Position numbers and translations under genes: made by a program | In this document: piece after piece, positions 54,419 to 60,724 of the stretch | Layout: every line of letters starts with the position of its first letter | How positions within the stretch are numbered: position 1 is the stretch's first letter | The notes under the pieces: model-generated | Databases searched by the model: none | What the model saw: only the letters and a program-made list of their open reading frames with translations | What the model was told of the DNA's origin: nothing | Origin: Bartonella bilalgolemi | GTDB taxonomy: Bacteria; Pseudomonadota; Alphaproteobacteria; Rhizobiales; Rhizobiaceae | Length of the DNA: 64,000 bases | NCBI RefSeq assembly: GCF_023500045.1 | Contig: NZ_JAMCOF010000002.1 | Coordinates: forward strand, 124,001-188,000 | Direction of reading: 5' to 3'

Positions 54419-55426
54419 ATGAAAAAAAGTAAAGATATTTTGCATATTCAGTCCTATGAGAAGCAGGGACGAGTTATGGATGCAGCTCCAAAACAGTGGG
54501 TTTATGATTTTCTTCCTTGTTCTTTATGGTTATATGCTCAATTAGCTCGATGGGATAGGCCTATTGGATGGAAGTTATTGATGTGGCCCTGTTTTTGGTC
54601 AACAACTATGGCTATTTTTTCTTATGAGATATCACAATTATCTATTTTGTCGATTGTCATTAATTGGATTTGGTATCTTTTTTTATTTTTTGTAGGCTCT
54701 ATAGCTATGCGGGGTGCAGGTTGTACATGGAATGACCTTGTTGACCAAGAAATTGATTCTCAAATAGAGCGAACACGTTCTCGACCATTGCCTACGGGGC
54801 AAGTGAGTCGATTTCAGGCAAAAATTTTCATATTAATACAATGTATTATAGGCTTAGGTGTTTTATTGCAATTTAATGTATTTACTTTTTTTTTAGGTCT
54901 TTCATCATTGGTAGCAGTTGCATTTTACCCTTTTATGAAACGTATAACAAATTGGCCGCAATTTTTTTTAGGTGTTGCATTTAATTGGGGAGCATTAATG
55001 GGGTGGGCTGCTGTGCATGGCAGTTTAAGTTGGGCACCAATAGCACTTTATATAGGCTCAATTCTATGGACGGTAGGCTATGATACAATTTACGCTCATC
55101 AAGATAAGGATGATGATGTAATTGTTGGTGTTCGCTCTACAGCACTCCTCTTTGGTAAAAGAACTAAATATGCATTGGTACTTTTATATGGCGGTTTTGT
55201 AATTTTAACTAGCTTGGCATTTTATCTGGCGCAAGTCCCTATTCTGAGTTTTTTAGGGATTTTAATTGCAGCTATCCATATGTTTATACAAATTAAAGTT
55301 ATTGATATCGACAACAGTTTGCAATGTTTACAGCTTTTCAAGTCTAATTCGTTTGTTGGTTTTTTGATCTTCGCTGGTTTGCTATGTGGAGGAATTTCGA
55401 CAATACTGTATTCGATAATTTTGTGA
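54419..55426 (+). CDS. ubiA: 4-hydroxybenzoate polyprenyltransferase
   Basis: This 335-residue integral membrane enzyme attaches the polyprenyl chain to 4-hydroxybenzoate in ubiquinone synthesis. The first aspartate-rich motif is CTWNDLVDQEIDSQIERTRS and the second is AHQDKDDDVIVGVRSTAL. About eight membrane helices surround them. The N-terminal roughly 45 residues are an extension; MDAAPKQW at residue 20 is a possible alternative start. Its aromatic substrate derives from chorismate, whose synthase gene is broken in this window. Confidence 0.93.
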   Translation: MKKSKDILHIQSYEKQGRVMDAAPKQWVYDFLPCSLWLYAQLARWDRPIGWKLLMWPCFWSTTMAIFSYEISQLSILSIVINWIWYLFLFFVGSIAMRGAGCTWNDLVDQEIDSQIERTRSRPLPTGQVSRFQAKIFILIQCIIGLGVLLQFNVFTFFLGLSSLVAVAFYPFMKRITNWPQFFLGVAFNWGALMGWAAVHGSLSWAPIALYIGSILWTVGYDTIYAHQDKDDDVIVGVRSTALLFGKRTKYALVLLYGGFVILTSLAFYLAQVPILSFLGILIAAIHMFIQIKVIDIDNSLQCLQLFKSNSFVGFLIFAGLLCGGISTILYSIIL

Positions 55427-56449: not shown

Positions 56450-57340
56450 ATGCGTGATCCTTATACGGTTCTAGGCGTGGCACGCACTGCAAGACCGCAA
56501 GAGATTAAATCTGCATTCAGAAAACTAGCAAAAAAATATCATCCAGATCATAATATGGGTGATGTGAAGGCTAAAGAAAAGTTTGCTGAAGTGAATCAAG
56601 CCTATGAAATTATAGGAGATAAAGATAAAAAGATACAATTTGATCGTGGTGAAATTGATGCAGAAGGAAAACCACTTCATCAAGCTTATGGTGCTGGAGG
56701 ACATTTTAGAGATGGACATAATCCTTTTTCAGGAACTACAAGGGGATTTGATTTTGGTTCTTCAGGTGGTGTAGGTTTTGATGCAAGTGATATTTTTCGT
56801 GATTTATTTGGAAGAGGAAGAAATTTTTCAAATTCTACACAACATAATCAACCTCAACAAGGAGCTCATATTCGTACCAGTCTTTCCGTAACATTGGAAC
56901 AGATGGTTGGTGCAGAAAAGGTAGAAACAATTTTTCCTAATGGCAAAAGACTAAAAATTAAGCTCCCAATTTATGTTGAGGATGGACAAACTATCCGTTT
57001 AAAAGGTCAGGGAGAAAAAGTACCATATGGACAATCAGGAGATGCGTTGGTAACTGTTTATATTCAAAAACATCCTCATTTACGAGTTGAAGGAAGGGCA
57101 CTTCATCTTGATTTGCCAATTCCTCTTAAACATGCTGTGTTGGGAGCAAAAGAGGAAATTCAGACATTAGAAGGGCGTGTCGTTGTAACAATTCCTGCAT
57201 GGTCAAGTTCTGATCGTGTTTTACGGTTAAAAGGGAAAGGGCTTCGTTTAAAAAATGGAGAAAGAGATGACCTTTTTGTCCATGTTCGTATCATGTTACC
57301 CCAAAAAGATCCTGCATTAGAACAGTTTTTTCAAAAATAG
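56450..57340 (+). CDS. J-domain co-chaperone (DnaJ/CbpA-like)
   Basis: This 296-residue co-chaperone stimulates DnaK. The J-domain covers residues 1-70 with the HPD motif in [11 protein letters not shown] Gly/Phe-rich linker (about 75-130) follows, and then the two beta domains of the DnaJ C-terminal region ([39 protein letters not shown]). The CXXCXGXG zinc domain of DnaJ is absent, so this is a type II protein like CbpA rather than DnaJ itself. Confidence 0.9.
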
Positions 57341-57471
57341 AAAGTTAAGATTTTTTATAGTACAAAATTATAGTTTTGAATTGATTTTAAACCAACTGCT
57401 TGAAGAAAAAGTTTACCTGTGCCATAGGCAAATGGGTAATGTTAATTTTTAGTTGCAATGAGGCAATGCTA

Positions 57472-58290
57472 ATGGCTAATAGTGGTAATTTATTATGCGG
57501 TAAGCGTGGTCTAATTTTGGGGTTGGCCAATAATCGATCTATCGCTTGGGGGATAGCCAAGGCAGCAAGTGCTGCAGGGGCAGAGCTTGCTTTTACCTAT
57601 CAAGGTGAAGCATTGAAGAAGCGTGTTGAGCCTTTGGCCGAAGAAGTGAGAGGAATTGTTTGCGGTCATTGTGATGTATCTGATAGTAAATCTATTGATG
57701 CAATTTTTAATGAAATAGAGAAAAGATGGGGTAAGCTTGATTTTTTAGTTCATGCCATTGGTTTTTCTGACAAAGATGAATTGAGCGGTCGTTATATTGA
57801 TGTCAGCGAATCAAATTTTATGATGACAATGAATATTTCTGTTTATTCTTTGACAGCTCTTACACAGCGTGCGGAAAAGTTGATGTCAGATGGTGGTTCA
57901 ATTTTAACACTGACTTATTATGGTGCTGAGAAAGTTGTTCCTAACTATAATGTGATGGGGGTTGCTAAGGCTGCTCTTGAGGCTAGCGTAAAATATTTAG
58001 CTGTAGATTTAGGACCGAAGAATATTCGTGTTAATGCTTTGTCGGCAGGGCCTATAAAAACGTTGGCTGCTTCTGGTATTGGGAACTTTCGTTATATTCT
58101 TAAATGGAATGAGTATAATGCTCCTTTACGTCGTACAGTGACAATAGAAGAGGTTGGTGATTCTGCGCTATACTTTCTTTCGGATTTATCTCGTTCTGTT
58201 ACGGGAGAGGTGCATCATGTAGATTCAGGGTATCATATTATAGGTATGAAAGCTGTTGATGCACCAGATATTTCCGTTATTAAAGAATAG
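57472..58290 (+). CDS. fabI: Enoyl-[acyl-carrier-protein] reductase (NADH)
   Basis: This 272-residue reductase completes each round of fatty acid elongation. The dinucleotide-binding start is CGKRGLILGLANNRSIAWGI, and the catalytic Tyr-x6-Lys is YNVMGVAK in the family context NYNVMGVAKAALEASVKYLA. VNALSAGPIKTLAASGI and SVTGEVHHVDSGYH complete the short-chain dehydrogenase fold. I chose the ATG at 57472 with GAGG upstream; 57466 is equally possible, and 57400 would add a hydrophobic lead not typical of FabI. The next gene downstream is the broken aroC. Confidence 0.92.
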   Translation: MANSGNLLCGKRGLILGLANNRSIAWGIAKAASAAGAELAFTYQGEALKKRVEPLAEEVRGIVCGHCDVSDSKSIDAIFNEIEKRWGKLDFLVHAIGFSDKDELSGRYIDVSESNFMMTMNISVYSLTALTQRAEKLMSDGGSILTLTYYGAEKVVPNYNVMGVAKAALEASVKYLAVDLGPKNIRVNALSAGPIKTLAASGIGNFRYILKWNEYNAPLRRTVTIEEVGDSALYFLSDLSRSVTGEVHHVDSGYHIIGMKAVDAPDISVIKE

Positions 58291-58446
58291 GGAGGCAAGC
58301 TCACTTTATCAGCGACAATTTGACTAAAGTTGAAGTGGTTAATAATAGTCTTAGGTGAGATGATCTTATTTGTAGCTCAATGTACATATGGCTATATGTA
58401 TTTTGTATTCTATGGTTGAGTATATTTAAAAAATGAAACTGTTTCC

Positions 58447-59340
58447 ATGTCGCATATACATGCGATCATTTGTTTCATGTGATAATATGGTATGAGAGTT
58501 ATAGAGTTACGTTGAGTGTATTATTGATAGTTGTTCTCCAGGGATTATTTTCACTCTTACAGGATTTCAAGCATATCTTGATAACGGTGATCAGGACAAT
58601 CAAAATATGGAGTACAACGTTAAGAATTAAGTCAGATAGAGGTTCTTTCGGGAGTTGTGACTCAGGTTGATGTTACAAACTTAGTAATAATAGGAGCACC
58701 AGTTTCAATATTTTCTGAGATACAGACAGTGATCAGAGGATTATAATATGGGATTCTTTATTATTGTAGTAGTGGGCGTGCTTCAACATATGAAACAGTA
58801 GAGCATGTTGCAGCAGATATATTTATACGTAAAATTATTTTTTATTTGATTATTTGGGGCGCTGTGATAGTGGTTGTCTCCTATCAGATTAATTGTGGTT
58901 GATGGAATTAGTCAAAGGTCTATAATAGTCCTTTTTTACACTTTCTACTTATGAAGCACGTGTTTTCGCTGATTATATGGATAAATTACTTAAAGATGGA
59001 TCGTTCGTTGATACTGTTGTTGAGATTATTGCAGAAAATGTTTCATCATGGTTAGCAACACCTAATTTGTGCGAGACTTAATCAGGATATTGTATCGTTT
59101 TTAATGTTAATTAATGCAGTTTTAATGGTGTTGAAATTGATGATGGTTGTGTGTTTTGCAGTTAAGCCCAATATCATCGATTTTAACTTTTCTTTGTTCA
59201 ATTGATGTTGATGGTAAAAACGTGGATGTTATCACAGACGAGTGCTATGATTCGGGTTGTTTCTGTTGGTGAAGCAATGCTTCCTTTTGCTATTGTTGAT
59301 CATTAGCTGAGGCATCGCGGTCAAATTGGTTGTATAGGAA
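58447..59340 (+). pseudogene. aroC: Decayed chorismate synthase gene
   Basis: The gene is traceable along its length in shifting frames. It starts MSHIHAIICFM at 58447, shifts to FHVIIWYESYRVTLSV (matching the FRVTTWGESHG start of AroC), and continues with VIIGAPVSIFSEI (TTGTPISL region) near 58675. GRASTYETVEHVAADIFIRK near 58775 is the GRSSARETA region. Near 58935 it reads YEARVFADYMDKL, near 59165 ISSILTFLCSIDVDGKNVDV, and near 59250 VVSVGEAMLPFAIVDH then LRHRGQIG. At least six frameshifts or stops separate these blocks, so no enzyme can be made. It sits in order between fabI and ribB. Confidence 0.88.
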
Positions 59341-59349
59341 GGAAAAGCA

Positions 59350-60462
59350 ATGATTTATAATCAGAAAAAAGTTGTTTCTGCTATTCAAGCTTTTGAACGC
59401 GGCGAAATTGTTATAGTTATGGATGATGATGATCGCGAAAATGAAGGTGACTTAATCGTTGCTGCTATCCATTGTACAGAAAAAAAAATGGCATTTATTA
59501 TGCGTTATACATCCGGTATTGTTTGTGCGCCCTTACCGAAGGAGAAAGCACAACGATTAAATTTAGCTCCTATGGTATCAGATAATGATTCAATGCACTG
59601 TACCAAGTTTACTGTTACTGTTGATTTTAAATACGGAATAACAACAGGGATTTCAGCACACGATCGTACATTAGCAGTTCGTAATCTTGCTAATCCAAAT
59701 GCTAATGCTAATGATTTTGTCCGTCCAGGACATATTTTTCCTTTAATTGCACATGAAGGTGGTGTTCTGATGCGGTCCGGACATACTGAGGCTGCAGTTG
59801 ATTTATGTAAATTAGCTGGTTTGCCACCAGTTGGTGTGATTGGTGAATTAGTTAATGATGATGGGAGTGTTAAACACGGAGATGAGGTTATAAAGTTTGC
59901 ACAGGATCATCAGTTGCATACAATAACAGTTGCAGATCTTATTGCTTATCGTCAGCGTAAAGAGACGCTAATAAAACATGTCGGAGAAATGCAAATTGAA
60001 ACATCTGTAGGGCCGGCTGTAGTTCAAAGTTATCAACTGCCTTGGGAGACGGTTCAGCATGTTGCGATTGTTTTTGGTGATATCCGTGATGGTGAGGATA
60101 TTCCGGTACGTTTGCATCGTGAAAACATTTTAAATGATGTTTTTGGTCAAGCATCAAATATTGAAGTTATTATGCGTCGTATGGTAGAAGAAGAGAAACG
60201 CGGTGTGTTTGTTTATCTGCGAGGAGGGTTCGTTGGTGTTGATTGTCAATCAGCTATTGATAATCAGGAAATAACGAAAAGAGATTTAGAAAATCATATG
60301 CAGGCGATTGAACGTGAAAAAGAGTGGCGCCAAATTGGTTTAGGAGCTCAAATTTTGAGACATTTAGGGATTAGTTCTGTTATTGTCTATGCTTCTAAAG
60401 AACGTCATTATGTTGGTTTAGAAGGTTTTGGAATTCGCATATCTAGAACAGATATCTTGTGA
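59350..60462 (+). CDS. ribB: 3,4-dihydroxy-2-butanone 4-phosphate synthase with degenerate GTP cyclohydrolase II domain
   Basis: This 370-residue protein makes dihydroxybutanone phosphate from ribulose 5-phosphate for riboflavin. The N-terminal domain (about 1-205) is intact: [38 protein letters not shown] and [16 protein letters not shown]. The C-terminal half has the RibA fold, but the zinc-binding cysteines are missing: the position usually reading VHSECLTGD here reads [14 protein letters not shown]. It is therefore predicted to be a RibB-only enzyme. A short NANANAND stretch is encoded near residue 115. It directly follows the aroC remnant. Confidence 0.88.
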
Positions 60463-60469
60463 GGGTTAC

Positions 60470-60724
60470 ATGAAGCAAGACACAAAAAAAGAAGATATTG
60501 CTACGTTGAGTTTTGAGGAAGCACTTAAACAACTTGAAGCGATTGTCGAAAATTTAGAACGTGGAGATGTTCCTTTGGAACAGTCGATTGATATTTATGA
60601 ACGTGGTGAAGCTCTTAAAAATCATTGTGATAGGTTACTAAAAGTAGCTGAAGCTAAAGTTGAAAAAATTCAACTTTCAGATGAGGGAAAACCTGAAGGT
60701 GTAGAACCACTAGATCCTGAATAA
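60470..60724 (+). CDS. xseB: Exodeoxyribonuclease VII small subunit
   Basis: This 84-residue subunit partners XseA to degrade single-stranded DNA. The family core is [20 protein letters not shown] followed by [17 protein letters not shown] and [16 protein letters not shown] chose the ATG at 60470 with GAGGG upstream; an in-frame start at 60428 lies inside ribB. It follows ribB by seven bases. Confidence 0.93.

Follow-up and report, generated by a model that had tools for sequence, protein, structure and literature searches.

UbiC converts chorismate to 4-hydroxybenzoate (4HB), for ubiquinone, and UbiA consumes the 4HB. Among described systems, Rickettsia keeps UbiA but has neither UbiC nor the synthesis of chorismate, and has been inferred to import 4HB (PMC5615194). 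On a wider scale, shikimate gene sets are incomplete in 91 of 295 host-associated bacteria versus 16 of 147 free-living ones (PMC3018139, Table 2), and within the Bartonellaceae the ant symbiont Ca. T. hoelldobblerii has lost aroE (PMC6044324). Loss of the pathway with scavenging of 4HB is, in short, of an already known kind.

The locus considered here lies in a stretch of 64,000 nucleotides of Bartonella bilalgolemi (the window), which belongs to G000, one of 71 Bartonella genomes surveyed and itself a draft (1.607 Mb, 36 contigs) whose completeness is rated at 100%. The features of the window on which the argument depends are the following:

54419..55426, + strand: ubiA, 4-hydroxybenzoate polyprenyltransferase, intact (NCBIfam TIGR01474, 366.8 bits against a cut-off of 275)
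57472..58290, + strand: fabI, intact, upstream of the aroC remnant (PF13561, 5e-91)
58447..59334, + strand: remnant of aroC (chorismate synthase), a pseudogene split into six pieces over three frames
59350..60462, + strand: ribBA, intact, downstream of the aroC remnant and without overlap with it (PF00926, 9e-81)

The aroC remnant between fabI and ribBA

The original prediction had traced the aroC family from start to end, at 58447-59340, in at least six pieces and different frames, and it holds, as does its placing of the DNA in Bartonella. With four intact Bartonella AroC proteins as tblastn queries (from G028, G011, G007 and G037, 364 aa each), six plus-strand pieces are found in all three frames, with residues 5-363 in order along 58458-59333 and a best E of 4e-30; with the G007 query the pieces run to residue 364, at 59336, while two of the six overlap and approximately residues 254-301 have no match. 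At the DNA level, nucleotides 1-1090 of the 1095 of G028 aroC align to 58447-59334, which fits the predicted coordinates. The best real score is 102 bits; of 500 dinucleotide shuffles, 121 gave any match, and none of these exceeded 23.5 bits. A functional AroC would occupy one open frame of some 364 codons; in the plus strand of the fabI-ribBA interval the longest stretch without a stop is 77 codons, and compared with G028 the remnant carries about 12 frame-breaking gaps and 8 stops, counts that are approximate, as the method yields up to four spurious gaps in open aroA genes. The position is conserved, and the proposed comparison of this interval gave a uniform result: it also houses aroC in 12 of the 12 intact genomes read. 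No Rfam match that might reveal a hidden RNA gene appeared within 57000-60600.

A single scan with the RibBA of the window gave matches from three genomes, Bartonella sp. AR 15-3, B. rochalimae and B. clarridgeiae, whose RibBA proteins are 98%, 96% and 95% identical to it, respectively; by their coordinates these genomes are G041, G036 and G014. Between G000 and G041 the aroC remnant has diverged at 0.095-0.101 of its sites, and dS is 0.10-0.11 in aroA, rpsA, ribBA and fabI, 0.12 in ubiA and 0.20 in cmk. The remnant evolves at the synonymous rate, that is, in neutral decay, and since dS varies by gene, neutral here means like most of the genes compared; the adjacent fabI has a dN/dS of 0.06-0.09 among G000, G041 and G036. 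Homology, conserved position and neutral evolution together confirm the feature as an aroC pseudogene. (In one other genome, at G045:C3:493391-494501, ribBA matches as two overlapping pieces, unlike in the other 70, through a frameshift or an assembly error.)

Given that the draft is in 36 contigs, one might invoke a faulty sequence or assembly, or else a second, intact aroC hidden in a contig gap, and yet this is so improbable as to be negligible. Five frame-breaking gaps in the coding part are common to G000, G041 and G036, so that the lesions stand in the assemblies of two sister species; on this ground assembly error is rejected for aroC, and the resequencing that had been considered as a way of restoring the frame would be very unlikely to do so. 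Furthermore, five other shikimate genes are dead as well, and a PF01264 profile search that detects aroC in 14 of 14 control genomes gives no match in the G000 draft at E<=10, so that no second copy was found there.

Collapse of the shikimate pathway and its repetition

The loss of aroC is real but incomplete as a description, because in G000 six of the seven shikimate genes are dead, aroA being the open exception. In the 71 genomes, aroC is full length without stops in 63 (PF01264 profile), henceforth aro+, a set that includes G011, with a split aroE, and G037, with a TAG in aroQ. The gene aroB exceeds its cut-off in 63 genomes and aroK is full length in 63, after exclusion of the weak SKI matches of many genomes, which cover 25-40 profile positions inside a longer protein; aroG passes in 62 (the 85%-complete draft G062 has a 374-position match), aroE in 62 (that of G011 being in two pieces) and aroQ in 59. 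The eight genomes that fail for aroC are G000, G002, G006, G014, G036, G041, G042 and G046, and the same eight are broken in, or lack, aroB, aroK, aroG and aroE, with aroQ lost in seven of them; in G014, the least decayed of the dead-pathway genomes, aroQ is one open frame of 150 codons with a score under the cut-off. Further exceptions for aroQ are G001 and G021 (full length, just below the cut-off), G030 (split) and G037 (one TAG). What befell aroC belongs, then, to a collapse that took in the entire shikimate pathway.

Two lesions stand apart in pathways that are otherwise complete, the split aroE of G011 (L110) and the single TAG in aroQ of G037 (L112); these are either first lesions or assembly errors, and the UbiA of G037 (L124) likewise reads short.

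A tree of cmk, rpsA, ribBA and fabI was built for 21 of the 71 genomes, in protein and DNA versions (G006 without ribBA, G047 without fabI, G002 with ribBA and fabI only, G010 with cmk and rpsA only), and in it the dead genomes occupy four places: (i) G000, G041, G036, G014 and G042, a group that we take to be the one named lineage 3, with a support of 100; (ii) G006, separately; (iii) G046, grouped with the aro+ G047 (support 82 in the protein tree and 95 in the DNA tree); and (iv) G002, grouped with the aro+ G007 and G008 (79 and 97). A sister relationship between G006 and G046 would lower the count to three. Within lineage 3, the coding part of aroC in G014 is broken by one gap only, shared with none, and G042 has a gap set of its own, in which one 1-base gap coincides in place with G036 only. 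Judged from the tree and the lesions, aroC would have been broken about four times on the 21-genome tree, perhaps six.

As for age, the five shared gaps mean that the loss predates the split of G000, G041 and G036, which lies at a dS of ~0.2, aroC being dead before G036 branched off; the loss had been called fairly recent, a description that must be set against that date.

Last uses of chorismate and the retention of UbiA

A match to UbiC (PF04345) without stops is present in 49 of the 71 genomes and one with a stop in G014 and G042, while the 20 genomes with no match are six of the eight aro-dead genomes and 14 carrying PF00425, the TrpE/PabB fold. The latter family occurs in 15 genomes, namely those 14 and G031, and is absent from 56, of which 48 have an intact aroC. 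Taken together, UbiC or PF00425 is intact in 63 of 63 aro+ genomes versus none of the eight aro-dead ones. No UbiC remnant was seen in G000, G041 and G036 in stretches of rough synteny, and since these may be misplaced, only the whole-genome search for UbiC counts. PheA (PF00800) matches in 56 genomes, with the match split or interrupted by stops in G012, G030 and G032, and is absent from the eight aro-dead genomes and from G007, G008, G011, G028, G037, G040 and G047, which are aro+ and have UbiC; in these seven, UbiC is the sole consumer among the three families tested (UbiC, PF00425 and PheA).

Two side observations belong here. At G032:C1:284859-285383 and G012:C2:95858-96388, pheA carries stops in the presence of an intact aroC, a loss of PheA in progress. 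The 14 genomes without a UbiC match (G003, G004, G013, G043-G045 and G056-G063) are large, with an intact aroC and PF00425; if they make ubiquinone, an enzyme other than a recognizable UbiC would supply their 4HB.

It had been argued at the outset that the loss of aroC would leave the organism dependent on its host, or on a second copy, for aromatic amino acids, folate and 4HB. Supply from outside is indeed implied, no second aroC having been found in G000 and the pathway genes being dead, and among the uses of chorismate tested 4HB for ubiquinone remains at stake. Tryptophan and folate, in contrast, are not newly lost, because PF00425 is missing in 56 of the 71 genomes, 48 of them with an intact aroC, and folate is not at stake given that B. 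henselae is tabulated without FolK and FolP (PMC1971073). The case of phenylalanine is similarly qualified, as PheA is also missing in the seven genomes with an intact aroC.

UbiA has followed another course. It is open in all eight pathway-dead genomes, with 287-292 residues from a shared motif and the aspartate motifs present, and the dN/dS of ubiA is 0.06-0.13 among G000, G041 and G036 and 0.19 for G014-G042, four pairs of aro+ relatives giving 0.03-0.09. UbiA is under strong selection while the tested steps to 4HB are gone, and the genes present the pattern of a 4HB scavenger, with UbiA kept and UbiC and the shikimate pathway absent or dead. With UbiC dead or missing in just the eight genomes that have lost the pathway, and UbiA intact under strong selection, ubiquinone was probably the last product to depend on that pathway.

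The history that we consider quite probable is one in which chorismate, in this part of Bartonella, would have been reduced to a single detectable use, that is, UbiC to 4HB to ubiquinone. At some stage 4HB would have become obtainable from the host, in blood or in the vector, by import; UbiC and the shikimate pathway would then have lost their purpose together and decayed, aroC with them, while UbiA would still have been required. In order of loss, PheA would have gone first, and then UbiC with the pathway. The import of 4HB would be the simplest way of accounting for both the constraint on UbiA and the lost steps to 4HB.

The ring of ubiquinone might instead have a source other than imported 4HB, either made from tyrosine by an unrecognized route or replaced, if UbiA accepts it, by a compound such as 4-aminobenzoate. 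This we regard as quite unlikely. The 14 genomes with an intact aroC and no UbiC match speak for it, since, if they make ubiquinone, there would be a second route to 4HB somewhere in the genus; however, those 14 are of another type, being large (2.2-2.9 Mb) and carrying PF00425, and we know of no candidate gene for an alternative ring route in G000. Import of 4HB is the reading retained here.

An open aroA frame without its active site

The exception to the collapse is a gene outside the window:

Contig C1:31222-32490 of G000 (L034): aroA, open and annotated-looking, with three active-site positions gone

Across the survey aroA exceeds its cut-off in 69 of the 71 genomes and fails to do so in G002 and in G057, a draft that is 86% complete. 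It forms one open frame in six of the eight dead genomes (G000, G041, G036, G014, G006 and G046); in G042 there is a frameshift near the 5′ end that leaves 390 open codons, and in G002 only remnants are found, just before cmk. Like the EPSP synthase AroA (2ggd_A and relatives), the G000 protein exceeds the TIGR01356 cut-off (351.8 bits against 287, over positions 1-414 of the 415 of the profile), and NCBIfam still names it aroA. The active site was read by alignment to the solved enzyme 2ggd_A, presumably the CP4 EPSP synthase, at the positions that we take to form the site: R33, R128, Q175, R200, K353, E354, R357 and R405. All eight are unchanged in 13 aro+ genomes and in G014. Unlike that enzyme, G000 AroA has R33, R128 and E354 replaced, and the others are replaced at 128, 354 and 405 (G041), at 33, 128, 175, 200, 354 and 405 (G036) and at 200 and 357 (G042), as well as, counting listed or neighbouring substrate-site positions, at 29 and 33 (G006) and at 28, 33, 128, 175 and 200 (G046). 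Five of the six open copies in dead genomes are thus without some active-site residues, and the set of positions lost differs between genomes.

The frame, in contrast to that of the other genes, has been spared. Comparison of G000 with G041 gives 7 frame-breaking gaps for aroC (910 nt), 10 for the aroG stretch (1596 nt), 11 for the aroK-aroB stretch (1946 nt) and none for aroA (1329 nt), where ~8 would be expected at the pooled rate, a rough figure, as both stretches include some non-gene sequence and the aroK-aroB stretch differs by only 0.042 between these genomes. Between G000 and G036 the gaps number 11, 35, 16 and 0, respectively, and over the trio of G000, G041 and G036 they range over 7-22, 10-36, 11-22 and 0. 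The missing gaps are the strong part of the evidence; the missing stops are weak evidence, with 1.8-3.6 expected under neutrality.

By pairwise counts, the dN/dS of aroA is 0.30-0.40 within the trio versus 0.11-0.18 in 11 of 11 control pairs (10 between aro+ genomes and one of G014 with an aro+ genome). There is no such rise in cmk, ribBA and fabI, and rpsA gives 0.08 in the trio versus 0.01-0.09 in the controls. Pairs with G006 or G046 give 0.10-0.19, with no rise, at a dS near or above 1, so that these values neither show nor exclude relaxation. Relative to the mutation spectrum of the aroC remnant, taken as the neutral reference, nonsynonymous change in the aroA of the trio proceeds at 0.44-0.55 of the neutral rate (binomial p 0.011 to 3e-6). 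The amino-acid differences are shared evenly between the invariant and the variable sites of 14 copies with an intact active site (17/246 and 17/192; 32/246 and 23/192; 30/246 and 30/192) and are spread over all six sixths of the gene; a constraint limited to the 3′ end, for the ribosome-binding site or promoter of cmk, is accordingly not seen.

AroA would have kept its open frame after loss of the active site in at least three separate lines (G000/G041/G036, G006 and G046), maintained for transcription or translation upstream of cmk-rpsA or for a new, non-catalytic role, and in function would count as a pseudogene, although profile-based annotation takes it for an intact enzyme; for this statement as a whole the chances seem evenly balanced.

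As to the reason, aroA is presumably the gene called aroF elsewhere. The order aroF > cmk > rpsA is a stable linkage in alphaproteobacteria (PMC1173090). In each of the 20 genomes read, the stop of aroA and the inferred start of cmk overlap in the sequence TTGA; cmk (214-215 codons) and rpsA (566) are open in all 20, and a G-rich site resembling a ribosome-binding site for cmk lies inside aroA. Stops or frameshifts in aroA would, in this position, cut the transcription or translation of cmk and rpsA, amino-acid changes being tolerated, and the expression of rpsA could be harmed by loss of the frame. Such operon polarity is the leading guess and the most likely cause, unproven, with about an even chance of being right: the overlap, the absence of gaps and the even fall of differences on invariant and variable sites all favor it, but a rate of 0.44-0.55 of neutral is lower than pure frame-keeping predicts, and aroA has decayed in G002, where cmk and rpsA are both present, and is frameshifted in G042. 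The comparison with aroE also counts against it. That gene overlaps coaE by 4 nt in G028 in a similar manner, and stops nonetheless break it in G000, G041 and G036; it is broken in G014 too and mostly deleted in G042, which weakens translational coupling as the sole guard of aroA. In G006, aroE (L111, 1416-1757), which lies between maf and coaE, has been shortened by a large deletion but continues to read as a single open frame, 113 codons long.

That the protein is kept for a second, non-catalytic role is unlikely. It would be consistent with a frame open in five genomes that have lost active-site residues, with a trio dN/dS above the controls but below 1 and with the absence of a rise in pairs with G006 or G046, at their high dS; the differences, however, are neither steered away from conserved sites nor confined to one part of the gene, and the positions lost vary from genome to genome. 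Polarity upstream of cmk-rpsA thus remains the preferred account.

Meaning and comparison with known systems

Among these closely related species, some with the pathway and some without it, a biosynthetic route can be watched as it dies again and again, and their comparison suggests that its last use was the quinone ring. This predicts 4HB as a nutrient that could improve defined media for these species, as well as a type of uptake gene worth searching for. In B. bacilliformis, AroA has been put forward as a drug target (PMC7416641); blocking it should not matter in the eight dead genomes, even where aroA is annotated. The open, active-site-dead aroA would, in turn, be a clean system in which to ask whether its place in the operon is by itself enough to preserve a reading frame that has no use.

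Among the matches listed in a literature search of titles and abstract openings, with few subscription journals, none was a paper on the loss of aroC or the shikimate pathway in this Bartonella lineage. The loss is like that of host-associated bacteria, in which shikimate genes are lost more commonly than in free-living ones; the accessible text of PMC3018139 mentions Bartonella only as an example of genome reduction, with no detail on aroC or on the lineage. It is also like that of Ca. T. hoelldobblerii, where a shikimate gene is lost within the same family, although there it is one gene, in an insect gut symbiont, discussed as a matter of amino-acid supply, and the terms shikimate, chorismate and ubiquinone are absent from the available text of PMC6044324. 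To our knowledge, three features are apparently undescribed: that the loss recurs inside a single genus, that UbiC is lost in parallel, and that open but inactive copies of aroA have arisen convergently.

The closest likeness in gene pattern is to the quinone metabolism of Rickettsia, with UbiA and without UbiC or the shikimate pathway. Unlike Rickettsia, Bartonella grows outside host cells, and its loss can be seen while still under way, in several instances, next to close relatives in which the pathway is intact.
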